From assembly GCF_001908105.1 (NCBI RefSeq), contig NZ_MKGQ01000053.1, positions 1-10,335 on the forward strand: a stretch of DNA of 10,335 nucleotides. Reading direction: 5' to 3'. This DNA is from Xenorhabdus eapokensis (lineage in GTDB: Bacteria > Pseudomonadota > Gammaproteobacteria > Enterobacterales > Enterobacteriaceae). The notes under the pieces were generated by a model, which did not search any database, was not told the origin of the DNA, and saw nothing but the letters and a program-made list of their open reading frames with translations. Positions 1-10,335 of this stretch are shown here, in pieces. How positions within the stretch are numbered: the stretch's first letter is position 1; each line of letters opens with the position of its first letter. The translations under genes and the position numbers were made by a program.

Positions 1-2
1 TC

Positions 3-722
3 GGCTACCGGCTTCGGTTAAACAAACGCAGCAGGGAGGGCATTGATGAAATTGCATCGTTTCGGTTTATTGGTCTGGTTGCTGAGCAGTTCAGTGTGGC
101 GGGGCAAATCTACAAATATGGTATGAATGCAGGATTGCCGGTTCGCCATGACGGCAAACTGGCGATTAACCTGCATTGTGATGAATTTAATGAGCTGATG
201 GGCGATGAATTTATTCCGCTGATTAATAAAGGCGGCGGTGCGGGCATGCAGGTGACAGCCTATACCCAGACTTCCTCCGATATCGAAGCCCGTATCGGCA
301 GCCCGGCTAAAACCGCACAGGTGATTGGTAACTTCAATACCCTGATTATGCTGCGGGTGCGGGATAACCGGACGGCAGAGCTGCTCACCAGCCAGTTGCC
401 CGAAGTGGAAATCTACAGCAAGACGCTGGTTTCAGGGCACTCTGATATTGCCGATGTTGAACAGGGTCAGGATTTTACCTCGTCGACGCAGGATCGGGTA
501 GGTACGGTCAAAACGCCGCTGGTCACCCCTGCCGAAATGATTAACCTGCCGAAAGGGCAGGCGTTCGCCTTACTGGAAGGCGGGCAACTGTGGAAAATTC
601 GCATGCCACTGCCAACCGGCGATGACGACGATGCCCTGATGCCGGCGAGCTTGCAGAACATCGCCGAACAGATGCGACGGCATTACCGTACCCGTGAAGC
701 TTGGTGGGAAGAGAAAGGGTAA
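3..722 (+). CDS. traD: TraD-type conjugative coupling ATPase, C-terminal part (5' truncated by window edge)
   Basis: The frame is open from the window edge, so this is the end of a longer gene; the first in-frame start visible (GTG at 96) is internal, not the true start. Coupling proteins are inner-membrane ATPases that bring relaxase-bound DNA to the type IV secretion channel. The visible part holds the Walker B strand (hydrophobic run ending in CDEFNEL, bases 159-197), then INKGGGAG and the QVTAYTQTSSDIEAR segment, then the FNTLIMLRV and TAELLTSQLPEVE segments typical of TraD from GI-type integrative elements. The tail includes KGQAFALLEGGQLWKIRMPLP and an acidic DDDD stretch. Walker A lies upstream, outside the window. 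The membrane-protein gene that follows starts 9 bases after the stop, as is usual in these elements. I could not confirm from memory that codons before base 96 match the family, but the frame is continuous. The family call is strong. Confidence 0.9.
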   Translation, partial: GYRLRLNKRSREGIDEIASFRFIGLVAEQFSVAGQIYKYGMNAGLPVRHDGKLAINLHCDEFNELMGDEFIPLINKGGGAGMQVTAYTQTSSDIEARIGSPAKTAQVIGNFNTLIMLRVRDNRTAELLTSQLPEVEIYSKTLVSGHSDIADVEQGQDFTSSTQDRVGTVKTPLVTPAEMINLPKGQAFALLEGGQLWKIRMPLPTGDDDDALMPASLQNIAEQMRRHYRTREAWWEEKG

Positions 723-731
723 TTTCAGGTC

Positions 732-1490
732 ATGGCACAGTCAGAAAACCAATCCCGTCCATCTTCCCAACCGCCCCGCCAGCATGGCCTGCTGTATCGT
801 GTGTTATGGGCATGGCCGTGGCAACTCATTGGGTTTATTGTGATGTCCTGGCTATTCAGTCTGTTGCTGGAATATCTCGGTATGACTTTTTTCTGGCCAG
901 AACAAGGTGCCTCTCATAGCCAGACGGTGATGAAAACCGAGCTGCAATTTTTATCCACGGAATTGACCCAGAGCCTGTTGTTGTCAAATCCCGCACAAAC
1001 GGTCTCTGACTGGCTGACGCAGGCATATCAATGGATTTTTGTCGACAGTGGTTTTATGCACTGGATACAGGGACAACGGCAGTATCAGCTCAATAGCCGC
1101 AATGATTTTCTGCGTGAATTCAATGCGGTATTGCATGGCATATCGGAGCATTTGCGGGAATATTGTCTGGCGACGGTGTTTATCACCATGGTGACGTTAA
1201 TCCGGTTAGCGATTCTGGTGTTATCCATCCCTTTGTTTGTGATGGTGATCTTAGTCGCTCTGGTTGACGGGCTGGGACGGCGGGATTTACGCCGTTATGG
1301 CGCAGGCTATGAATCCAGTTTTGTTTATCACCATGCCAAACGGGGCATTAAACCGGCCTGCACCATTCCCTGTGTGCTGTATTTATCCTGGCCGGATGTG
1401 GTGTATCCCACGGTGATATTGCTGCCTGCGGCACTCTTGCTGGGTATGACGGTGATGATCACGACTGCGATGTTTAAAAAGTATATATGA
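732..1490 (+). CDS. Integrating conjugative element membrane protein, TIGR03747 (PFL_4697) family
   Basis: This 252-residue membrane protein belongs to the family that directly follows traD in GI-type ICEs. Its exact role in the conjugation machine is not established. Visible hydrophobic segments lie at about residues 28-50, 147-178, 205-222 and 226-246, with a soluble loop of roughly 95 residues between the first two. The segment VDGLGRRDLRRYGAGYESSF (about 178-197), with the following HHAKR, is the family hallmark between the second and third membrane segments. The ATG at 732 lies 9 bases after the traD stop; the AGG just upstream is very close to the start, so translation may depend on coupling from traD. 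In related elements the next gene would be a small RAQPRD-family protein or another T4SS gene. Here an AT-rich gap and a metabolic operon follow instead. Confidence 0.88.
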   Translation: MAQSENQSRPSSQPPRQHGLLYRVLWAWPWQLIGFIVMSWLFSLLLEYLGMTFFWPEQGASHSQTVMKTELQFLSTELTQSLLLSNPAQTVSDWLTQAYQWIFVDSGFMHWIQGQRQYQLNSRNDFLREFNAVLHGISEHLREYCLATVFITMVTLIRLAILVLSIPLFVMVILVALVDGLGRRDLRRYGAGYESSFVYHHAKRGIKPACTIPCVLYLSWPDVVYPTVILLPAALLLGMTVMITTAMFKKYI

Positions 1491-1551
1491 ATGCCTCCCT
1501 CCCGTTTGCCAAACATTGTACTTTGATGACAGCAGGGCGATTGCAGCTATA

Positions 1552-1581
1552 TACCCGTACATGGACTCCCGTGTATGGGTA
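1552..1581. repeat. Inverted repeat / hairpin just after the ICE membrane-protein gene
   Basis: The arms TACCCGTACATG (1552-1563) and CGTGTATGGGTA (1570-1581) pair over 12 bp, including two G-U pairs, around a 6-base loop. It begins about 60 bases after the stop of the conjugation gene. No T-tract follows on either strand, so it is not a classical intrinsic terminator. It could protect an mRNA 3' end, or mark a remnant junction between ICE backbone and cargo. Confidence 0.5.
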
Positions 1582-1848
1582 AGAGAAATGTCTCTGGTTG
1601 AGGTCATGACTGAGCCTGTACATTCGGCTTATTAAACATTCATGCGTTAGCACTGGTGTTGCTCCTTCAGAGTAGTATCCAATAATAATAAAAATATATT
1701 TATTATTCTCTCGTTCTGAATGGTTTTCATGAATGCTGGTTGAACTTAAATTAGTGCTCGTAAGTTATTTAGTTAATTATTTTTATGAATTTTATTTTCC
1801 TTATAATGTTAAATGAATTAATTTAAAATTATTTAATTTATGGTAAAA

Positions 1849-1874
1849 TTTTAGCCATTCGTTAATGGCTAAAA
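1849..1874. repeat. Perfect 11-bp inverted repeat with 4-base loop
   Basis: TTTTAGCCATT (1849-1859) and AATGGCTAAAA (1864-1874) are perfectly complementary and separated by CGTT. On the + strand an A-tract follows the stem. On the - strand the stem is followed by TTTT (bases 1848-1845), so it is weakly terminator-like only for leftward transcription, for which no gene is visible. It may equally be a protein-binding dyad. Confidence 0.5.
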
Positions 1875-1941
1875 AAATTTGATAACATGTATTTTATGAA
1901 TGCCGTATACCGGCGGTTTAATTATTATTGGGTATGATATA

Positions 1942-1959
1942 TTTCATTATGTAATGAAA
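1942..1959. promoter_or_regulatory. Perfect 8-2-8 palindrome, candidate operator
   Basis: TTTCATTATGTAATGAAA consists of two perfectly complementary 8-base arms around a TG centre. Its size and symmetry suit a dimeric helix-turn-helix regulator rather than an RNA hairpin, because a 2-base loop cannot close fully. It lies about 450 bases before the AfsA-family gene. No regulator gene is visible in the window, so the ligand protein is unknown. In sequence this AT-rich, such a dyad could arise by chance; confidence concerns function. Confidence 0.35.
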
Positions 1960-2305
1960 GAGAAATAATATCCTTTAGATAAAATATAACGTCAATAAAT
2001 CGTATGTTTAATATTTTCTCATGGGGTTTTTTATGAAATTACCCTCAGAGGTAAAAGAGTCTGGTAATTAGGGTTATAAGACTAATAGGAGTATTCTGAC
2101 AAGAATTTACAGTTTATGATTTTAATTCCTAATCTCAGTCTATATGCATCGTAATTCGTTTGCAAGAACAGAGGTTATGATAATCACCACTCAGAACTCA
2201 TCATTCTCGATGACTTTATCACTATGCGAGTCTTGATAATGAAAAGATGGTATTGCTAACCCAATAAAATGAAATCGTAAATTTCTGCGCGAATGCTCCC
2301 GCTGG

Positions 2306-2334
2306 TTCATTATTAATTGCATCCAGAATATGAT
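2306..2334 (+). promoter_or_regulatory. Weak candidate sigma-70 promoter for the cargo operon
   Basis: TTCATT (2306-2311) and TATGAT (2329-2334) are separated by 17 bases and lie about 80 bases before the first cargo start codon. The -10 matches 5 of 6 consensus bases; the -35 matches only about 3 of 6. It is offered as the best-placed candidate near the operon; GATAAT at 2360-2365 is another -10-like word without a good -35. An activator may be needed. Confidence 0.2.
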
Positions 2335-2411
2335 TGTGAGCGAACGTCAATTAAATTCGGATAATCAGTGCTACATATTAATTAACCTGTGATGAGATTA
2401 AAGGAAAGATA

Positions 2412-3125
2412 ATGGCTTATATAGTCGTTGTGGGGGATCGTTTTACTGAATTCAGTGAAAATAATAATGTACTTACGTTTTCTCAGGTGTTGAAATTTCT
2501 CTCCGCTGCCCAATGTGAAGATGATTATCAGGTTATCTTTGGTCAGGGGCTTTCTAAAGAAAATATTGAGGAATTTAAAAATTTGTTACGTCATGGCGAT
2601 ACTGATAAAACGTTGCTACTTAATAAAATTCATCTGCTGCGGGAAACAACCCGGAATACACATAAACACAAAGTGGAAAATGTTCTTATTTCCGAAACTA
2701 TTAAAACCGGGGTGGTTTCATATCAATGTCATTTGTTGATTGATGACGGCTGTGCGGAAATGGCCGACCACGTAACCGGGCAGCATATCCAGGGCATGGT
2801 TTTACTTGAAGCATGTCGGCAAATGGTTAATTCCGTCTCTGAGCGGTTTCTTATCAAAACGGGTAGTGAAAAATCGTTTGTTCTACATGCGATGAACTCT
2901 GAATTTAAAGAATATCTCTTTCCGGTTGCATCGAGCATGGAAATGACTATCAGGCATTTTCGCCGGGGATTAAGAGGGGATTTTACCGCTGAATGTATTA
3001 TCACAATAATGCAAAACAACACCGTGTGTCTGTGCGTTGGCATTAAATTTAGCGCAATTGACAAAGGATACCTAAGTTTGATTGAACAACAGATGGCAGC
3101 AAAATTGCTCAGTCATCTGCATTGA
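2412..3125 (+). CDS. AfsA-family (A-factor biosynthesis) hotdog protein
   Basis: This 237-residue protein is recognised by two AfsA-type segments: HKHKVENVLIS (about 84-94) and DHVTGQHIQGMVLLEACRQM (119-138), the latter equivalent to the DH-x-xGMLLLEAARQ signature of the A-factor biosynthesis hotdog domain. Strands at about 155-215 complete one hotdog fold. Known relatives (AfsA, MmfL) condense a beta-ketoacyl-ACP with dihydroxyacetone phosphate on the way to gamma-butyrolactone or furan signals. Streptomyces AfsA is about 300 residues with a duplicated hotdog; here there is one clear copy preceded by about 75 residues I do not recognise. ATG 2412 follows AAGGA at 2401-2405 with 6-base spacing. 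It is first in the operon, 25 bases before the exporter. The sequence is rich in AT codons. The family call is strong; the reaction is inferred. A dehydratase or thioesterase-like hotdog role is the alternative. Confidence 0.8.
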   Translation: MAYIVVVGDRFTEFSENNNVLTFSQVLKFLSAAQCEDDYQVIFGQGLSKENIEEFKNLLRHGDTDKTLLLNKIHLLRETTRNTHKHKVENVLISETIKTGVVSYQCHLLIDDGCAEMADHVTGQHIQGMVLLEACRQMVNSVSERFLIKTGSEKSFVLHAMNSEFKEYLFPVASSMEMTIRHFRRGLRGDFTAECIITIMQNNTVCLCVGIKFSAIDKGYLSLIEQQMAAKLLSHLH

Positions 3126-3150
3126 ATTAGTAAATTTGAGGAGTACAAAA

Positions 3151-4389
3151 ATGAGAGAAAAACCGGGACTTATTTGGTATCTGGTATTGGTTGCGCTACT
3201 TGATTTTATCGGTTTGGGAATGGTGGTGGCGATATTTCCACATATGATGATTTCCGATGCCGCTTCACTATTCCCGGATGGCTGGGATCATCAAAAAAAG
3301 GTGATTATGTTAGGAATTTTCCTTGCAATCTATCCTCTTGGTCAGTTTTTTGGTGCCTCCATACTGGGCAAAATGTCGGACATTTATGGCCGCAGAAAAA
3401 TGATGCTAATTACTGTGGCGGGTACTGCCGTAGCCTTTGCTGCCAGTGCCTGTGCGGTTGTTGAAGTGTCGGCGGGGTTACTGCTGTTTAGCCGTTTGCT
3501 GGCTGGGATGATGGCGGGTAACGTGGCGATTGCACAGGCAAGCATGGCGGATATCAGCGCGCCGGGCAATAAAACTAAAAATCTCACCATGATTCAGACC
3601 GCACTGGGCCTAGCCTGGGTAATAGGGCCGCCGACCGGAGGCTGGCTAACCAATTTCTCTCTGGGGCAATTGAGCGGATATATGACGCCGTTTGTTATTA
3701 TGGCTGCCATCTTTACTCTGTTATTTATTTACACTTTGGTTGCGTACCCCGATACCCTGGAAAAGCATACCCCGGAAAAAATAAATGTCTTTTCCGGTCT
3801 GGTGCAAATCGCGAAAGCCTATAGCCATGCTGAATTGAGAATGGCATTTGCTATCTGGACGGTTTTTGTTGCTGGCTGGTGGCTGTTTGAGTCTTTCCTG
3901 CCCGCTTATCTGCTGGATATTTACAGTTTCAGTTCGTTTCAGATTGGTTCTTTCCTCGCGTCAATGGGAGCAACCTATGCATTATTCCAGTATCTAGTGG
4001 TAAGACACGTTGCCAAAGTCGCTAAACCTGAAAATATGGTGCGATATTCACTTGTGGTGTCATCACTTGCCGTAATGGCAATTTCAATGGTTAACAATGT
4101 TATTTACCTGCATATATTAATTACCATTTTCGTAACCTCCATGGGATTTGCATTGACCGGTCTGATAAGCAGCATTTCAAATCTTGCGCCGGAGAATGAG
4201 CAGGGCGAAATCATGGGTTCTATCAGTTCCATTCAGGCACTGGCCACGCTGATGGTCATGTTATTGGGTGGTTTCCTTGATACCACTAATATCCGGGTAA
4301 CGGTGGTGGGCGGCGGATTATTACTGTTAATTAGCTGGCTACTTTTTATGGTGCGCCTGGGAGTCATTAATCGTGAAGCGATTCGCTAG
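3151..4389 (+). CDS. Major facilitator superfamily (MFS) exporter
   Basis: A 412-residue, very hydrophobic protein with about twelve membrane segments, the normal MFS layout. Segment 1 contains DFIGLGMVV (18-26), and the loop between segments 2 and 3 carries the MFS motif A as GKMSDIYGRR (73-82), resembling drug:proton antiporters of the TetA/DHA1 type. The loop around residues 30-50 between segments 1 and 2 is polar. ATG 3151 is chosen because GAGGAG (3138-3143) lies 7 bases upstream; an earlier in-frame start at 3082 would overlap the AfsA gene by 44 bases and add a non-hydrophobic leader. In this operon it probably exports the cluster product, or gives self-resistance if the product is toxic. 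Substrate cannot be read from sequence. Confidence 0.9.
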   Translation: MREKPGLIWYLVLVALLDFIGLGMVVAIFPHMMISDAASLFPDGWDHQKKVIMLGIFLAIYPLGQFFGASILGKMSDIYGRRKMMLITVAGTAVAFAASACAVVEVSAGLLLFSRLLAGMMAGNVAIAQASMADISAPGNKTKNLTMIQTALGLAWVIGPPTGGWLTNFSLGQLSGYMTPFVIMAAIFTLLFIYTLVAYPDTLEKHTPEKINVFSGLVQIAKAYSHAELRMAFAIWTVFVAGWWLFESFLPAYLLDIYSFSSFQIGSFLASMGATYALFQYLVVRHVAKVAKPENMVRYSLVVSSLAVMAISMVNNVIYLHILITIFVTSMGFALTGLISSISNLAPENEQGEIMGSISSIQALATLMVMLLGGFLDTTNIRVTVVGGGLLLLISWLLFMVRLGVINREAIR

Positions 4390-4404
4390 GTATAAGGAGC
4401 CACA

Positions 4405-5907
4405 ATGAAAAGCCATTATCAGGTATTAATTGTGGGTGCGGGTCCTGTCGGACTGCTGCTGGCGTGCAGTCTGAAGAAAAGTGGAATTGATGTGGTGGTG
4501 GTCGAAAAAAGCTCTTCTCGCTCAACGCACTCGAAAGCATTATCAATGAACGCCGCCTCACTGGCTTTATTACGTTCTCTTGGCGTAGCGGAGCGTTTTG
4601 AACGGTCAGGAAAAGAGATCAGTGATATTTCAATTTACTGGAATCAGCAGCGAATTTCACACGTCGACTATCGCCAGTTGAACAGTTGTTATCAGCACAT
4701 TCTTGCCATTCCACAGCCAGAAACTGAGCGGTTGCTGGAAGAGTATTTTATTGAACTGGGTGGCGAAATCAGACGTTCTGTTACGTTAAGCGCGATTGAT
4801 GTTGGCTCTGATGGTATTAATGCTAGCTTCCCCGATGGGATGACGCTGACCTGTGACTATCTGGTGGGTTGTGACGGTAGCCATAGCATAGTGCGCGACT
4901 TTGCCGGTATCACCTTCAGTGGTTTCGACTACGGTATTGATTTTTACCTGTTTGATGCTCAGGTCAGCTGGCAGGGCAAACGTGATGAAGTGCATTATTT
5001 TGTCGACGAGCAGGGCTTTATTATTGTTATCCCACTGGCGGACGGTAACCATCGCTTTGTACTTCGATGTCCCCGCGAGGATAAGTCGCTGCCATCGTTG
5101 GCTGAATATCAGTCAGTGCTGTCACGTTACATCCCGCAACCCGTTGTCATTGAGCGTGTGGTCTGGGAATCGAAATCTCAGTTTTACAATCGACTGGCCA
5201 GTCAGTATCGGGTGGGCAATATTTTTCTTGCCGGAGACTCTTGTCACCTCTTCAGTCCCATCGGAGGGCTGGGGATGAATACTGGTTTCCAGGATGCCTG
5301 GAATCTTGCGTGGAAGTTGACCGCGGTAATTCGCCAGAGACAGCCTGATGATCTGCTTGATACTTACGGTGAGGAGCGGCGCAGCGTGGCGGCGATGCTG
5401 CGTGACAGCACCGATACTAGCACCCGCCTTATTGCTCGTATCGACCGTGACAGCGAAAAAATTTGCTGCTGGTTGCCCCGTTTCAGCAACAGACAGCGTG
5501 CGAGAACGCTGCATCCACAATTGTTTTCAGGACTGGCACAACGCTACAGCGGGTCATCGTTGATTTATGAAGGAAGGAATCTGGCGGGAAAATATCTGCC
5601 AGATCTCACACTGATCCAGCAGGGAAACCGCGTTAGCAGCTACGACATCGTGGATGGTGAAAATTATCATCTTATTGTGGGTAGCGAAAATGATAAGCAG
5701 TCGCTGATGACCGTTCTGATTGATTGTCATCTGTCAGTATATTTTGTCGAAGTTAACGGCTCTGATAAAAAAATCGAATTTCAACCCGGAGAATATCTTC
5801 TGGTACGCCCTGACGGTTTTGTCGCTATTCACGAAAGCTTGGGAACTTTGGAAGTCGTTGCTCACTATATTGAAACAAATAACATAAGGAATATCCATGA
5901 AAGATAA
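4405..5907 (+). CDS. FAD-dependent aromatic-type monooxygenase (PF01494, group A flavoprotein hydroxylase)
   Basis: This 500-residue protein has all three fingerprints of the para-hydroxybenzoate-hydroxylase fold: the dinucleotide-binding GAGPVG (11-16) with VVVVEK acid at about 30-35, the DG motif GCDGSHSIVR (155-164) that binds both FAD and NAD(P)H, and the second FAD motif GDSCHLFSPIGGLGMN (277-292). The part after about residue 385 fits the thioredoxin-like C-terminal domain of phenol hydroxylase/MhpA/Rox-like members, so the length is normal for that subgroup. Such enzymes insert one oxygen atom, usually hydroxylating electron-rich rings; some do epoxidation or Baeyer-Villiger oxidation. 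ATG 4405 follows AAGGAG (4394-4399), 15 bases after the exporter stop. The gene end overlaps the next start by 11 bases. In this cluster it probably tailors the assembled acyl product. The exact substrate is unknown. Confidence 0.9.
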   Translation: MKSHYQVLIVGAGPVGLLLACSLKKSGIDVVVVEKSSSRSTHSKALSMNAASLALLRSLGVAERFERSGKEISDISIYWNQQRISHVDYRQLNSCYQHILAIPQPETERLLEEYFIELGGEIRRSVTLSAIDVGSDGINASFPDGMTLTCDYLVGCDGSHSIVRDFAGITFSGFDYGIDFYLFDAQVSWQGKRDEVHYFVDEQGFIIVIPLADGNHRFVLRCPREDKSLPSLAEYQSVLSRYIPQPVVIERVVWESKSQFYNRLASQYRVGNIFLAGDSCHLFSPIGGLGMNTGFQDAWNLAWKLTAVIRQRQPDDLLDTYGEERRSVAAMLRDSTDTSTRLIARIDRDSEKICCWLPRFSNRQRARTLHPQLFSGLAQRYSGSSLIYEGRNLAGKYLPDLTLIQQGNRVSSYDIVDGENYHLIVGSENDKQSLMTVLIDCHLSVYFVEVNGSDKKIEFQPGEYLLVRPDGFVAIHESLGTLEVVAHYIETNNIRNIHER

Positions 5908-6199
5908 AATACGCCATGTCATTATTCAGTCGGTTACAGAACTCAATGCCACCTTGCCCGAACCACTACCGATTGAAAATGGCAATGAGTGCTTTATTTA
6001 TCGGCATGACTCTCATCTTGATTCAATTTCTCTGGTAATGCTGATTGCTGATTTGGAAAGTAAACTGGAAGATGATTTTGATGTTTCACTAACGCTGGCA
6101 AATGAAAAATCCATGTCGGCTAAAAACAGTCCATTTTCATCGGTAGGTCGACTGACCGATTACGTTGCTGATTTAATTGGAGAGCCACATAGTGCGTAA
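5897..6199 (+). CDS. Acyl carrier protein (first of two)
   Basis: A small acidic, helical protein of 100 residues with the phosphopantetheine attachment motif LDSISLV; Ser43 in the DS pair is the expected modified residue. The following helix, LIADLESKLEDDFDV, is typical of the recognition helix region of ACPs. It has about 15 extra residues compared with classic ACPs, partly in the loop before the DS motif (NGNECFIYRHDS). It needs a 4'-phosphopantetheinyl transferase, and none is in the window. ATG 5897 has AAGGA at 5886-5890 and overlaps the monooxygenase end by 11 bases, indicating translational coupling. It could carry the ligase-activated starter or the malonyl unit; which one cannot be decided here. 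Confidence 0.85.
   Translation: MKDKIRHVIIQSVTELNATLPEPLPIENGNECFIYRHDSHLDSISLVMLIADLESKLEDDFDVSLTLANEKSMSAKNSPFSSVGRLTDYVADLIGEPHSA
6179..6194 (+). promoter_or_regulatory. Ribosome binding site deciding a GTG start for the SDR
   Basis: GGAG at 6179-6182 sits 9 bases before GTG 6192. It uses bases within the upstream TTG (6177) that could otherwise be taken as the start, so GTG gives the better-supported start and places the TGTRKGIG nucleotide-binding motif at residues 9-16, the normal distance for the family. Confidence 0.65.
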
Positions 6200-6890
6200 A
6201 CCTGTTACCTTAATTACCGGAACCCGCAAAGGAATTGGCAAGTATCTGGCAGAGCACTATGTGGCTCAGGGACATATTGTCGTGGGATGCAGTCGTTCTG
6301 ATGTAGACTGGCAGTTAGCCGATTATCATCATTTTCTGGCCGACGTGATAGATGAGCAAGCAGTAAAAGCATTATTTAAATATATCCGACAAGAGTTTGG
6401 CTTTTTGGATAATTTAATTAATAACGCCGGCATTGCCTCAATGAATCATCTGATGCTGACCCCGTTATCCACCGTAAACAACATATTTAATACCAATGTG
6501 GTGGGCACATTCCTGTTTTGCAGAGAAGCCGCGAAAATAATGGCGAAAAACAGGTACGGTCGCATTGTTAACTTTACTACTGTAGCGACACCGCTGAAGC
6601 TTGAAGGTGAAGCTATTTATGCTGCCTCTAAATCGGCGGTTTATTCCCTTACGGAGGTGCTGGCACGCGAGTTGGCGGAGTTTAATATCACCGTTAATGC
6701 CGTGGGTCCTACGCCGATTGATACCGATCTCATCCGCTCTGTGCCTCAGGATAAAATGGATCGTCTGATTGCCCGTCAGGCCATCATCCGTAAAGGCGTA
6801 CTGCGGGATGTATCGAATGTTACTGATTTCTTCCTGCAGAAAGAGAGCGACTTTATTACGGGTCAGAACCTTTACCTGGGGGGGATCTGA
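6192..6890 (+). CDS. Short-chain dehydrogenase/reductase (FabG-like SDR)
   Basis: With the GTG start the protein has 232 residues, within the classical SDR range. Visible motifs are the NAD(P)-binding TGTRKGIG (9-16), NNAG (77-80), Asn102, and the catalytic YxxxK as Tyr143 and Lys147. The basic residues R12/K13 and R35 suggest NADPH. The usual catalytic Ser, 13 residues before Tyr, is Thr130 here (segment VNFTTVATP). The family reduces beta-ketoacyl thioesters or ketones, or oxidises the reverse way. In the cluster it may reduce the beta-ketoacyl-ACP, or reduce the butenolide-type intermediate, as reductases do in gamma-butyrolactone pathways. It overlaps the ACP before it by 8 bases and the ligase after it by one base (TGATG). 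A G-run near its 3' end is noted separately. Confidence 0.87.
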   Translation: MRKPVTLITGTRKGIGKYLAEHYVAQGHIVVGCSRSDVDWQLADYHHFLADVIDEQAVKALFKYIRQEFGFLDNLINNAGIASMNHLMLTPLSTVNNIFNTNVVGTFLFCREAAKIMAKNRYGRIVNFTTVATPLKLEGEAIYAASKSAVYSLTEVLARELAEFNITVNAVGPTPIDTDLIRSVPQDKMDRLIARQAIIRKGVLRDVSNVTDFFLQKESDFITGQNLYLGGI

Positions 6891-8239
6891 TGGACAGCGC
6901 CCTGTTATTTAAGCACCTTTACAACAACGGTGACCGGATTGCCTGCTGGTATCAGCAGAAGTCATACAGCTATAAATGGTTATTGTCGCGATGTGATGAA
7001 TTGATCTGGACCTTTAGCACGGTTGGTGTGGTTGCCGGCACAATGGTTTCCCTTATCGCTGATTACCATCCGGACTCACTGGCTTCACTGCTTGCATTGA
7101 TCAGGCTGAAAGCGATTGTTCAGCCTATGACTCGCCTCAGTGAAGAGGCCATCGCCAGAAACAGTGAAATTTGCAGTAGTGAATTCCAGTTGTGGATTGA
7201 CGAAGACGGGTTCAAAAATATTGGGTCCACGGGGATGAAGAGTGAGCATGCGTTAATTGATAACTTGCGCCTTTCCGGTCAGGCGGGCCTGATTATCATG
7301 TCTTCCGGGACTTCGGGGCAAAGCAAAGCCATTGTGCATAACCTTGAGCAGTTGATTAGCGTTGTAAAGCCCTCTTTGCAGCCGAGGACGGTGCTTTCGT
7401 TTCTGCTGTTTGACCACATTGGCGGTATCAATACCATATTGAGTGCGTTTGCTAGCGGTAACTGCCTGGTCGTTCCTGAACTGCGAACGCCAGAGAGCAT
7501 CAGTGAAGCTATCTCGCGTTATCAGGTTGATGTACTGATTACCTCACCGTCTTTCCTTAACCTGATGATCTTAAAAAATTGCTTTGAAAATCGTTCGCTA
7601 CAAGTACTAAAACAGATTAATTATGGCAGCGAAGTGATGCCGGCTTCAATACTGAGTTATCTGGCGGAAAAATTACCGACAACCAGAATGATTCAGGCTT
7701 ATGGACTTTCTGAGGCCGGTGTAATTAAAACTCGCAGCGATGATAACCAGTCAACGTTCATTCGTATCGTTGACGATGGTGTCCAGGTCAGAGTGAGAGA
7801 GAACAAGCTGGAAGTATTATCAAAAACCTCAATGCTGGGTTATATGAACGCACCATCACCCTTTACATCTGATGGGTGGTTAATAACTGGTGATGTGGTG
7901 GAGGTGCGCGACAATAGTTTTCGCATCGTTGGCAGAGATACAGAGGTGATTAACGTCGGCGGTGAAAAAGTTTACCCCGGCGAAGTGGAGAACATTATTC
8001 TTCAACTCACCAGGGTAGAAGATGTGGTGGTGAGTGCGGAGAAAAACGCCATATTGGGGAACATAGTCGTCGCAAGAATAAAAGCCAGTGTCGATACCGA
8101 TTTTATTCAATTGCGCCGCGAAGTAATTTTATGGTGTAAGAAACATCTTCCCTTATTTAAAGTTCCGCAAAAAATTACTTTTGTTAATGAAGTTGATTAT
8201 GGCCTGCGATTTAAAAAGAAACGTCAACCAATAGCCTGA
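6890..8239 (+). CDS. AMP-forming acyl/aryl ligase (ANL superfamily)
   Basis: The 449-residue protein shows the adenylate-forming core: phosphate loop SSGTSGQSK (138-146), YGLSEAG (271-277), TGD (333-335), hinge region GRD (348-350) and the VINVGGEKVYPGEVE segment (about 353-367). The C-terminal lysine-rich RFKKKR (440-445) should contain the catalytic lysine for adenylation. These enzymes activate a carboxylic acid as acyl-AMP and pass it to CoA or to an ACP thiol. With an ACP gene 8 bases downstream and another two genes upstream, loading of an ACP is the likely role. It is shorter than the usual 500-550 residues, the N-terminal part being compact. The start overlaps the SDR stop as TGATG. 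Substrate (fatty, aryl or amino acid) is not predictable by eye; an aryl acid would fit the monooxygenase. Confidence 0.88.
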   Translation: MDSALLFKHLYNNGDRIACWYQQKSYSYKWLLSRCDELIWTFSTVGVVAGTMVSLIADYHPDSLASLLALIRLKAIVQPMTRLSEEAIARNSEICSSEFQLWIDEDGFKNIGSTGMKSEHALIDNLRLSGQAGLIIMSSGTSGQSKAIVHNLEQLISVVKPSLQPRTVLSFLLFDHIGGINTILSAFASGNCLVVPELRTPESISEAISRYQVDVLITSPSFLNLMILKNCFENRSLQVLKQINYGSEVMPASILSYLAEKLPTTRMIQAYGLSEAGVIKTRSDDNQSTFIRIVDDGVQVRVRENKLEVLSKTSMLGYMNAPSPFTSDGWLITGDVVEVRDNSFRIVGRDTEVINVGGEKVYPGEVENIILQLTRVEDVVVSAEKNAILGNIVVARIKASVDTDFIQLRREVILWCKKHLPLFKVPQKITFVNEVDYGLRFKKKRQPIA

Positions 8240-8247
8240 GGTAAAAA

Positions 8248-8487
8248 ATGAATAAGATACTACTGCTTGCCGACCTGTCTGAACTACTGGAAGTGGATAT
8301 CACCTTACTGAATGATGACTATGTCCTTGACCCGGAGGGGCGCTGGGATTCTCTGGCGATTGTTTCGGTAATCGGTGCGATCAATCAGCACTATTCGGTA
8401 TTGGTTAACGGAGAAGATCTTGGCCGTTGTCAGCGAGTGGGCGAAATATTTAACCTGGTATTTAATCAAAATATTGTGGATATGTAA
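8248..8487 (+). CDS. Acyl carrier protein (second of two)
   Basis: A 79-residue protein of normal ACP size with the attachment motif WDSLAIVS; Ser35 is the expected phosphopantetheine site. The sequence EGRWDSL resembles stand-alone carrier proteins that partner dedicated ligases and ketosynthases in secondary metabolism. A GAGG ribosome site (8238-8241) overlaps the ligase stop, and ATG follows 6 bases later. The stop overlaps the ketosynthase start by one base (TAATG). Its position between ligase and KAS III suggests that it carries the ligase-derived acyl group or presents the extender to the ketosynthase. It is clearly diverged from the first ACP, so the two are not a recent duplication. 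Confidence 0.85.
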   Translation: MNKILLLADLSELLEVDITLLNDDYVLDPEGRWDSLAIVSVIGAINQHYSVLVNGEDLGRCQRVGEIFNLVFNQNIVDM

Positions 8488-9482
8488 TGAACGTTACACT
8501 TCATGGTTTAAAAATAGAGGCGGTTGCCGCCTCTGTTCCGTCAACAAAGCTGACGCTGGAGCAACTGGCTCAACAATTTGGTGAAAAGGAAGTGGAGAGG
8601 ATTGCGCTCAGCACCGGCATCAACCAGTTGGGTATTGCGCAAACCCCGTTACGGGCTTCAGACCTGTGCGTACATGCAGTGCACAAAATTTTTAATGAAC
8701 AGACCGATCCCGACGAGATCGACGGTGTGATTTTTGTTTCGCAAACGCCGGATTATCTGATGCCCGCCACTTCTTGCGTGTTACAACAGAGACTGGGGCT
8801 GTGCCGGGATGTGATTGCTTTTGACATTAACTATGGTTGTTCCGGCTATATTTACGGCCTGTATCAGGCCGCGCTGTTGATAAGTTCGCATAGCTGCCGC
8901 AAGGTTCTGCTCTGTGTGGGTGACACAATGACCCGACATATCGCTGACGACGACCATAAGCTTCGTATGGTGCTGGGAGATGCCGGTAGTGCGACCATCA
9001 TCGCTGCCGGTGATGATGACTGGGCCTTTGATATTCATACCGACGGCAGTGGTTATGACAAGCTCATCGTCCCACAGGGAGAGGATTTACGCCACGGTTA
9101 TCTGCAGATGGACGGGGTGGCTGTGATGGAATTTGCGCTTAAAGTGGTACACAACACCGTGAATAAGGCGCTCGAAATGAAGGGATGGGATAAACAGCAG
9201 GTGGATCATTTCTTTCTACACCAGCCCAACCGCTTTATGCTGCAGTACCTCACTAAAAAACTGCGGGTCGCTGCTGAAAAGGTGCCGATTGCGGTGGAAA
9301 ATTACGGTAACACCGGCCCGGCATCCATCCCTCTGACTCTCTGCCAGCATTTCAGTAGTAATAGTGAGCAGCAGCCGGGAAAGGCTATTATGTCGGGGTT
9401 TGGTGTCGGCTTATCCTGGGGGACAATAGGCCTCAGTCTGAAGAATGTCCGCGTGTTCCCTCCCTTAACCTGCACCAGCTGA
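8487..9482 (+). CDS. Beta-ketoacyl-ACP synthase III (FabH-like ketosynthase)
   Basis: A 331-residue thiolase-fold enzyme with an intact Cys-His-Asn triad: Cys118 in INYGCSGY, His245 in FLHQPNRF and Asn275 in ENYGNTGPAS, almost the same positions as in E. coli FabH (112, 244, 274). The glycine-rich end GFGVGLSWG is also standard. KAS III enzymes start chains by condensing an acyl-CoA or acyl-ACP with malonyl-ACP; secondary-metabolism relatives (PqsD-type, ester-forming KAS III) use other acyl groups. The intact Asn supports decarboxylative condensation rather than only acyl transfer. A primary-metabolism fabH copy is unlikely, given the cluster context. There is only a weak GTGGA upstream of ATG 8487, so coupling from the preceding ACP (TAATG) probably drives translation. 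The HAD gene begins 13 bases after its stop. Confidence 0.9.
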   Translation: MNVTLHGLKIEAVAASVPSTKLTLEQLAQQFGEKEVERIALSTGINQLGIAQTPLRASDLCVHAVHKIFNEQTDPDEIDGVIFVSQTPDYLMPATSCVLQQRLGLCRDVIAFDINYGCSGYIYGLYQAALLISSHSCRKVLLCVGDTMTRHIADDDHKLRMVLGDAGSATIIAAGDDDWAFDIHTDGSGYDKLIVPQGEDLRHGYLQMDGVAVMEFALKVVHNTVNKALEMKGWDKQQVDHFFLHQPNRFMLQYLTKKLRVAAEKVPIAVENYGNTGPASIPLTLCQHFSSNSEQQPGKAIMSGFGVGLSWGTIGLSLKNVRVFPPLTCTS

Positions 9483-9495
9483 AGGAGACGTTGCC

Positions 9496-10173
9496 ATGTC
9501 GTACTGTGTATTTTTAGACGTGGATGAAACGCTAATTAACAGTAAAACCTTGTTAGCTACGTTCAGGCATCATTTGAACACAGTACTCGGTGTTTCGGTG
9601 GGTGAGGAACGTTTTGCTTATGTAATGGACACTCTGTCCGATGCTCAGGCGGCAGGTTTCAGCGATCGGGCAAGTTTAAATCAGCTTTACTACCGACATT
9701 TTGCCAATATTGACGTAGCCAGTTTGGCCACCACTTGTGAATCTTGGTTTAATTCTATCGGCATAAAATTGCTGAAAACTCGGGTATGTGACGAAATTGC
9801 CCGCCATCAGCAACGTAATGCCCAGATTGTGTTGGTGTCAGGTTCATATCACGCATGCCTGGATCCGTTGTCGCGCTATCTCAAAGCCGATGCCGTCCTT
9901 TGTACCGAACTGGTTAGTGCGCAGGGCGTGTATACGGGGGAACTGCAAGGCTGCCCGACCATCGGTGAGGGCAAGGCTCGGCGCATTGCAGATTATATCG
10001 TGCAGCATCGGTTTTCTTTGCGTGGCTCCTTTGCTTACGGCGACCATCAGAGCGATGTGCCCATGCTGGAAATGGCGGATGAAAAAGTGATTGTCGATAA
10101 CTACGATCTCTACTCCGCCCTCAGAATTCGCTGGCCTGAACTGGAGTGGCTCGACAGCCAGCAAGCATCCTGA
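9496..10173 (+). CDS. HAD superfamily (subfamily IB, SerB-like) phosphatase
   Basis: A 225-residue protein with all four HAD motifs: motif I FLDVDET (Asp8 nucleophile, Asp10 acid/base), motif II VSGS (Ser115), motif III GEGKARR (Lys160) and motif IV YGDHQSDVPML (Asp183, Asp187). The helical cap at about residues 15-90 and the GEGK/YGD pattern place it in the HAD-IB phosphoserine-phosphatase-like group. It hydrolyses a small phosphomonoester in the cytoplasm. AAGGAG at 9482-9487 precedes ATG 9496 by 8 bases. As the last gene of the operon it is a good candidate to remove the phosphate that an AfsA reaction with dihydroxyacetone phosphate would leave; in the methylenomycin furan cluster a HAD phosphatase (MmfP) accompanies the AfsA homologue. 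It is not an FkbH glyceryl-ACP enzyme: too short and the wrong HAD subgroup. Confidence 0.87.
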   Translation: MSYCVFLDVDETLINSKTLLATFRHHLNTVLGVSVGEERFAYVMDTLSDAQAAGFSDRASLNQLYYRHFANIDVASLATTCESWFNSIGIKLLKTRVCDEIARHQQRNAQIVLVSGSYHACLDPLSRYLKADAVLCTELVSAQGVYTGELQGCPTIGEGKARRIADYIVQHRFSLRGSFAYGDHQSDVPMLEMADEKVIVDNYDLYSALRIRWPELEWLDSQQAS

Positions 10174-10182
10174 GCTCAGGAT
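10167..10182. terminator. 16-bp perfect palindrome at the operon end, possible weak terminator
   Basis: ATCCTGAGCTCAGGAT is fully self-complementary and overlaps the stop codon of the HAD gene. As RNA it forms a 6-bp stem with an AGCT loop followed by only three U residues, so as an intrinsic terminator it would be weak. It may alternatively be a protein-binding site. Confidence 0.3.
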
Positions 10183-10200
10183 TTTACCCTTGTGAGTGGG

Positions 10201-10253
10201 TGCTGGACGTTGGAAGGCAAAACGGGTTTTTGTTTTGTATTCCAGCGTCAGCA
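10201..10253. repeat. Long nested hairpin downstream of the cargo operon
   Basis: TGCTGGACGTTGGAA (10201-10215) pairs with TTCCAGCGTCAGCA (10240-10253) over 14 bp, with one bulged G (10206) and one G-U pair. Inside the loop, CAAAAC (10218-10223) pairs with GTTTTG (10232-10237). No gene is visible on either strand from 10174 to the window end. The structure is much stronger than expected for chance and could be a factor-independent end of the transcript, a small RNA element or a mobile-element/attachment hairpin. Confidence 0.5.
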
Positions 10254-10258
10254 GACAA

Positions 10259-10271
10259 GCCGCACTGCGGC
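10259..10271. repeat. GC-rich short inverted repeat followed by T-rich DNA
   Basis: GCCGCACTGCGGC forms a 5-bp GC stem with an ACT loop, followed about 13 bases later by a pyrimidine-rich run (CTTTCTTTCTTG). The gap to the T-rich run argues against a clean intrinsic terminator. Confidence 0.3.
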
Positions 10272-10335
10272 GCGTCAGTCAGTCTTTCTTTCTTGTTAAT
10301 GCTGATATTTTGATGGCGTATTCACCACCGGTGTC

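Follow-up and report, generated by a model that had tools for sequence, protein, structure and literature searches.

A nine-gene AfsA-family block in an integrating conjugative element of Xenorhabdus and its predicted butenolide-type product

The genes of the block and a predicted pathway

The window analysed here is a whole 10,335-bp contig of Xenorhabdus eapokensis. It contains part of an integrating conjugative element (ICE) and, inserted into it, nine intact and tightly packed co-directional genes. As the original prediction had it, these encode an AfsA-family hotdog protein, a major facilitator superfamily (MFS) exporter, a flavin monooxygenase (FMO), two acyl carrier protein (ACP)-like proteins, a short-chain dehydrogenase/reductase (SDR), an AMP-binding acyl ligase, a ketoacyl-ACP synthase III (KAS III) and a HAD phosphatase. 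We consider it somewhat more probable than not that, in Xenorhabdus and some other Enterobacterales, the block is a mobile pathway whose product, an antimicrobial of butenolide type, is exported. The genes are, in order:

2412..3125, + strand: AfsA-family hotdog protein, 237 aa; predicted N-terminal alpha/beta stretch plus one FabZ-like hotdog
3151..4389, + strand: MFS exporter, 412 aa; MFS_1; intact without the cluster's KAS III in five Xenorhabdus genomes
4405..5907, + strand: class A flavin monooxygenase; FAD_binding_3
5897..6199, + strand: ACP-like protein 1; DSI motif only
6192..6890, + strand: SDR, FabG-like; family and motif
6890..8239, + strand: AMP-binding acyl ligase; family and motif
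8248..8487, + strand: ACP-like protein 2; DSL motif, PP-binding just under cut-off
8487..9482, + strand: KAS III; ACP_syn_III, Cys-His-Asn motifs
9496..10173, + strand: HAD-IB phosphatase; HAD Pfam profile, TIGR01490, DVDET

Families were called with Pfam and NCBIfam profiles at their curated cut-offs, and active-site motifs were located by script. Seven of the nine genes scored above Pfam cut-offs (AfsA, MFS_1, FAD_binding_3, SDR, AMP-binding, ACP_syn_III with its C domain, and HAD); the AfsA hotdog domain reached 52.9 bits against a cut-off of 24, and the HAD protein also passed TIGR01490 of NCBIfam. The motifs comprise Cys-His-Asn in KAS III, DVDET in the HAD protein, GAGPVG, CDG and GD in the FMO, YAASK in the SDR and SSGTSGQSK in the ligase, which we take to mark the usual functions of these enzymes. 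The predicted families thus hold by profile for seven genes and less firmly for the ACP-like proteins, the second of which scored 19.5 bits with PP-binding, just under the cut-off of 20.8. Two of the predicted gene starts were revised: the MFS gene most likely begins at the ATG at 3151, behind GAGGAG, rather than at 3082, and the SDR gene at the GTG at 6192 (ATG in X. doucetiae) rather than at 6177. With these starts, successive genes are spaced by -23 to +28 nt.

The AfsA protein is free-standing and shows no fusion to a modular polyketide synthase (PKS) of the gladiostatin PBS type. Its structural model (mean pLDDT 86.8) suggests a FabZ-like hotdog at about residues 75-218; a fold search left residues 1-75 uncovered, which does not amount to a new fold, and the AfsA profile found nothing better than an E value of 0.013 among PDB sequences. 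We dropped the idea that a single hotdog is a special layout, as a 310-aa AfsA protein of S. clavuligerus likewise yields one Pfam stretch. Neither the synthase nor the exporter reaches an equivalog of known function: AfsA scored 19.8 of the 200 bits of the ScbA/BarX gamma-butyrolactone synthase model NF041195, and the exporter 123.6 of the 475 bits of the Tet(A/B/C) model NF012174. Among NCBIfam models the exporter is nearest to tetracycline-type pumps, yet far under their cut-offs. PADLOC matched none of seven proteins.

Each step of the pathway that we propose, and the order of tailoring, is predicted from the families. The ligase would load a carboxylic acid onto an ACP, and KAS III would extend the acyl-ACP with malonyl-ACP to a beta-ketoacyl-ACP, so that the block's own ligase, ACP-like proteins and KAS III could build the ketoacyl chain without a large synthase. 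AfsA would then condense the beta-ketoacyl-ACP with dihydroxyacetone phosphate (DHAP) to a phosphorylated 2-acyl-butenolide. In the available text of PMC7756379, AfsA-like domains couple 3-ketothioesters to DHAP, and that of PMC7756420 proposes the same joining. The HAD enzyme would strip the phosphate, the SDR would reduce and the FMO oxidise the product, and the MFS protein would export it and protect the cell. Proteins in which a flavin monooxygenase like that of the window is fused to a HAD phosphatase (P0173 and P0180, and, from precomputed domains, P0194 and P0204) suggest that the monooxygenase and HAD steps are consecutive.

Conservation of the block and exporters kept without it

A set of 30 genomes was taken as Xenorhabdus, since the AfsA and KAS III of one member (G466, taken as X. 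doucetiae) equal X. doucetiae proteins. In this genome all nine genes keep their order and are 84-95% identical to those of the window. Given a single DNA match of 89.2% over window 2308-10187 and ratios of nonsynonymous to synonymous substitution rates (dN/dS) of 0.06-0.29 for all nine genes between the two copies, which indicate purifying selection, the block is not a chance arrangement. By protein search, the KAS III is 98% identical to that of X. ehlersii (6 differences in 331 residues) and the monooxygenase 99% (6 in 500). The next relatives among the matches listed are in Xenorhabdus sp. XENO-1, X. doucetiae, X. miraniensis (AfsA and FMO), Serratia plymuthica (AfsA) and Enterobacter asburiae.

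The AfsA protein search scored 156 candidates and gave 27 rows, the window's own included; the KAS III and FMO results are the best 120 of 5918 and the best 120 of 5892. Matches were placed on one contig by a proxy, equal contig size in bp. By this proxy all three proteins occur together on contigs of 92230, 4195202 and 4748641 bp, AfsA and KAS III on contigs of 28149, 174087 and 1779024 bp, and AfsA and FMO on one of 7441 bp, so that 7 of the 27 AfsA rows have one or both partners among the matches listed. The proxy can mislead: a size of 1488 bp found in both the AfsA and KAS III results is too short for both and was not counted.

The exporter has a wider distribution than the pathway. The cluster's KAS III was found in one of the 30 Xenorhabdus genomes (88% identity; next best 30%), and the MFS gene, at 90% identity or more, in six, always without stops. 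We fetched the flanks of the five copies that lack the cluster's KAS III. What remains of the block is AfsA 1-75 and FMO 1-138 in G467, and part of the AT-rich leader ahead of the block, AfsA 211-237 and FMO 1-109 and 234-261 in G482. AfsA fragments remain in G470, on a contig of only 6471 bp, and G480 and G476 have the exporter with short edges only, the G476 gene lying 250 bp from a contig end with its upstream side mostly unseen. The G467 exporter is six codons longer than the other copies. Compared pairwise, the fetched stretches match in the MFS region and the block remnants; beyond these, short matches occur in two pairs only, G482-G470 (5 kb from the exporter) and G476-G470 (95 bp at both contig ends, which precede the MFS match by about 130 bp and 1.2 kb).

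The exporter copies are under purifying selection (pairwise dN/dS 0.05-0.14, dS up to 0.87). On the G482 branch, nonsynonymous to synonymous changes number 12:3 in the FMO remnant and 6:12 in the exporter (p = 0.013), and on the window branch 1:4 and 1:12 (p = 0.49); the G482 remnant changes freely and the exporter less so. Where several relatives retain a pump but not its pathway, the pump resembles a resistance gene to the product of that pathway, although this is no proof. The original prediction had left open whether the product is a signal or an antimicrobial, and the exporter-only pattern speaks for an antimicrobial, with a resistance exporter that stands by itself, rather than for a signal.

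A butyrolactone-like signal, made by a pathway that spreads on mobile DNA while its receptor sits elsewhere in the host genome, appears a less probable product. Streptomyces AfsA proteins make signals, according to the available text of PMC7756379, and a family upstream of AfsA (F24) is common to Pseudomonas loci L001 and L027 and is of TetR type by Pfam in L027. However, the insert has no gene-sized open reading frame (ORF) besides the nine, so no receptor or regulator lies beside the synthase (small ORFs were not searched for families), and the gene found without the rest is the exporter. The L027 locus (L027:9112-16327) encodes AfsA, a TetR regulator, an aldo/keto reductase, a flavin monooxygenase, a condensation-domain acyltransferase and a hydrolase, and it is a possible signal-plus-receptor relative.

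Several observations weigh against an antimicrobial pathway as we propose it. ACP-like protein 1 has the DSI motif alone, with no Pfam match even at an E value of 10 and no NCBIfam match, and its predicted fold is uninformative (pLDDT 46). The 30-genome search took in KAS III and MFS, not AfsA. Low dN/dS in the exporter may partly date from before each loss, the gene may be kept for another substrate, and the G482 comparison rests on small counts in one lineage that was picked only once it had been noticed; the exporter, too, has more nonsynonymous changes there (6, against 1 on the window branch). Among the matches listed, none of AfsA falls on the X. ehlersii contig (1272290 bp) and none of KAS III or FMO on the S. 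plymuthica contig with AfsA. By the proxy, KAS III and FMO share contigs of 98460, 8327, 28065 and 21920 bp in other bacteria that have no listed AfsA.

These last contigs would also fit an ordinary small acyl-chain module that supplies short acyl groups to surface sugars or lipids; there, AfsA would use a different alcohol phosphate and the MFS protein would be a bystander multidrug pump. The KAS III relatives found at 45-60% identity, among the matches listed, in Legionella, Bacteroidales and others would fit it as well. We think such a module unlikely. In X. doucetiae, AfsA and HAD remain part of the block, no sugar-transfer gene is found among the nine, and with only 156 AfsA candidates scored, divergent AfsA partners could be missed.

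A cargo site of an integrating conjugative element

Around the block, the window has the following features:

3..722, + strand: C-terminal part of TraD, the ICE coupling protein; TraG-D_C Pfam
732..1490, + strand: TIGR03747/DUF4400 integrating conjugative element membrane protein; TIGR03747, 314.1 bits against a cut-off of 138.5
about 1497..10201, no strand: whole insert relative to the empty site, 8.7 kb, from empty-site comparison
1497..2411, no strand: AT-rich leader of the insert, GC 0.32, by composition
10202..10335, no strand: ICE resumes; from the L075 match, expected to contain the 3' end of a DUF5710 gene, on the minus strand, that precedes RAQPRD

In five Xenorhabdus genomes (L063, L064, L066, L067 and L068), the left flank of the block (ending at 1484-1496) and the right flank (starting at 10190-10202) meet at an empty site, and another insert occupies the same site in L065/L076. 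Two E. coli ICEs (L061 and L062) have the same order of TraD-TIGR03747 and RAQPRD, with other small genes in the interval. Given the empty site and the differing cargo, the interval after TIGR03747 is an ICE cargo spot. Beyond the empty site, L075 has a DUF5710 gene and then RAQPRD, outside the window here. With TraD and TIGR03747 in the window and RAQPRD past the empty site, the element belongs to the TIGR037xx type, which we take to be SPI-7-like. TraD, TIGR03747 and the empty sites support the predicted insertion of an AfsA-type pathway into an ICE of an Enterobacterales host.

This ICE copy itself has an odd junction. In L075, window 1-99 and the start of 73-1496 are about 2.6 kb apart, with 1-99 upstream, and L077 has a similar arrangement; the junction lies in TraD at about 91-99, and the joined ICE segments have 7 bases in common. 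The copy seems to be without about 477 of the 687 TraD residues, unless the contig is misassembled. This junction and the shortness of the contig could also suggest that the join between block and ICE is an assembly error, which we regard as very improbable, given that flanks adjoining in five genomes are not expected of a random joint and that L076 and the two E. coli ICEs have other cargo in the interval.

No inverted repeats were found inside either insert end, and only 7-bp matches between the ends; we therefore claim no transposon mechanism. Window 1539-1630 and 10202-10279, at or near the insert ends, match short stretches at many places in Xenorhabdus genomes and are perhaps recombination sites. 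The leader (1497-2411) has no Rfam match, and its 1750-2367 stretch is 76% identical to the sequence ahead of the G482 remnant. A scan of the leader gave 5 promoter-like sites against 5.7 expected, and two overlapping terminator-like sites at 1901-1917 against 0.5 expected; the right end of the insert has neither kind.

Carriage by an ICE describes this copy and not the block in general. In X. doucetiae no TraD or TIGR03747 match occurs within the 60 kb fetched around the block, so the ICE is only one of its addresses; the neighbours there are, by reading without a family search, chromosomal-looking ORFs and a transposase-like remnant. Plasmids have no DNA match to the block; AfsA protein matches occur in 19 plasmid records, all below 60% identity, and plasmid MFS matches are all below 60% among the 5000 listed. 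E. coli has no match to window 2412-6400, and a whole-window search matched 49 of 5426 E. coli genomes, by TraD or TIGR03747 only among the 20 records listed. Viral contigs have no match.

Relatives of the pathway in other bacteria

The original prediction presented AfsA chemistry as best known from actinomycete signalling; AfsA is not rare in Gram-negative bacteria. One scan gave 35 Gram-negative AfsA loci, none more than 37% identical to the window AfsA. As in the window, where a HAD-IB phosphatase lies within the operon, a HAD gene stands within 2.5 kb of AfsA on the same strand in 30 of them (not in L008, L017, L030, L032 and L035). With both genes also in the X. doucetiae block, AfsA and HAD give no sign of belonging to separate blocks. 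An FMO gene within 7 kb on the same strand was found in six. A common set, present in Enterobacter, Erwinia, Photorhabdus and others, consists of AfsA, HAD and two families without a Pfam match, each at 24 loci; various members add MFS, thiolase or SDR. This widespread set is seen at L014:8256-15288, L028:9345-16899 and L080:4776-10593, and LysR, MFS, thiolase or carboxymuconolactone-decarboxylase-like genes accompany it in various members.

In a family-wide sample AfsA was found in 7 of 392 genomes at low identity (best 36%); the X. doucetiae genome is not among these matches and was probably not drawn. Low-identity AfsA occurs in 5 of 145 Photorhabdus relatives, and AfsA at 31-36% in 3 of 30 and 3 of 61 genomes of the genera of the Serratia and Enterobacter loci. 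A class-wide KAS III search at an E value of 1e-70 gave no match of any kind (0 of 369) and is uninformative.

The block has an AfsA-family enzyme in common with the A-factor/gamma-butyrolactone, SAB and methylenomycin-furan pathways of Streptomyces, several of which also include a phosphatase and a reductase (PMC7756379, available text). By analogy, a phosphorylated butenolide intermediate is likely common to both. Set against the Streptomyces pathways, the block differs in having its own ligase, two ACP-like proteins, KAS III and a class A flavin monooxygenase; its insert contains no receptor, and its AfsA is far under the ScbA/BarX cut-off. The gladiostatin/gladiofungin system of Burkholderia gladioli likewise has a Gram-negative AfsA-like domain and putative phosphatase genes, and its PBS releases a beta-ketoacyl chain onto DHAP (PMC7756379 and PMC7756420, available parts). 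The gladiostatin PBS is fused to a modular PKS, whereas the window AfsA is free-standing and accompanied by KAS III. The Pseudomonas AfsA-HAD-FMO loci (L001, L002, L009 and L027) are 32-34% identical in AfsA, 35-37% in HAD and 34-41% in FMO, but L027 has its aldo/keto reductase, acyltransferase and hydrolase in place of ligase, ACP and KAS III.

Within the Enterobacterales, ICEPan IR-4A of Pantoea ananatis also carries an AfsA gene as ICE cargo, but with Fom1/Fom2-, SsfD-, SsfC- and StrU-like genes, and we set it apart by its published description only (PMC4458695, in part). The 'butyrolactone, unknown' cluster 6/14 of X. thailandensis resembles the block in its butyrolactone call, transporters and rifampicin-monooxygenase gene, and differs in the glycerol kinase and methylerythritol phosphate (MEP) pathway genes mentioned for it and absent from the window (PMC12383660, compared by description in the available text). 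It may be the nearest known neighbour, and could be either this block or a different one. Among other candidates, Pantoea PNP-3 is reported from Pantoea only (PMC11350110, available text), and PNP-4 and PNP-1, as far as described in the papers on them, have other gene sets.

We found no characterised cluster of this make-up in the literature within reach, which left out most subscription papers and the curated cluster databases, and a term search of the main text of Shi et al. 2022 (PMC9177418) gave no 'butyrolactone', 'AfsA' or 'butenolide'. The description of the block as unrecognised stands to that extent, and may be too strong in view of the X. thailandensis cluster. An AfsA gene as ICE cargo is already known from the available text on Pantoea (PMC4458695); the make-up, the cargo site and the exporter-only pattern appear new to us.

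The AvrD sets, which we take to be of syringolide type, resemble the block in having KAS III, ACP and a phosphatase, and one stands next to genes of the same ICE family (L077); they differ in AvrD instead of AfsA and in a thioesterase and a histidine phosphatase. A set of thioesterase, AvrD, KAS III, ACP and histidine phosphatase lies behind a large conjugative ATPase gene, called from position and size only, at L077:15787-19206 (G231) and L076:10979-13764 (G461), in the same Xenorhabdus ICE family. AvrD and KAS III are broken up into several ORFs in L076. Of the 30 Xenorhabdus genomes, 7 have AvrD matches. A bolder reading, which we hold to be less likely than not, is a colicin-like small-molecule system: a mobile butenolide antimicrobial pathway whose exporter also serves for immunity and is retained by itself in non-producers. 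The ICE family, with its AvrD sets, would then trade in products that join beta-ketoacyl chains to sugar phosphates.

The block is a compact and intact nine-gene target, in tractable insect symbionts, for a Gram-negative butenolide-type product. The exporter-only pattern predicts a function, toxicity together with resistance, ahead of the product itself, and the insertion described here points to ICE cargo sites as one means of moving such pathways.

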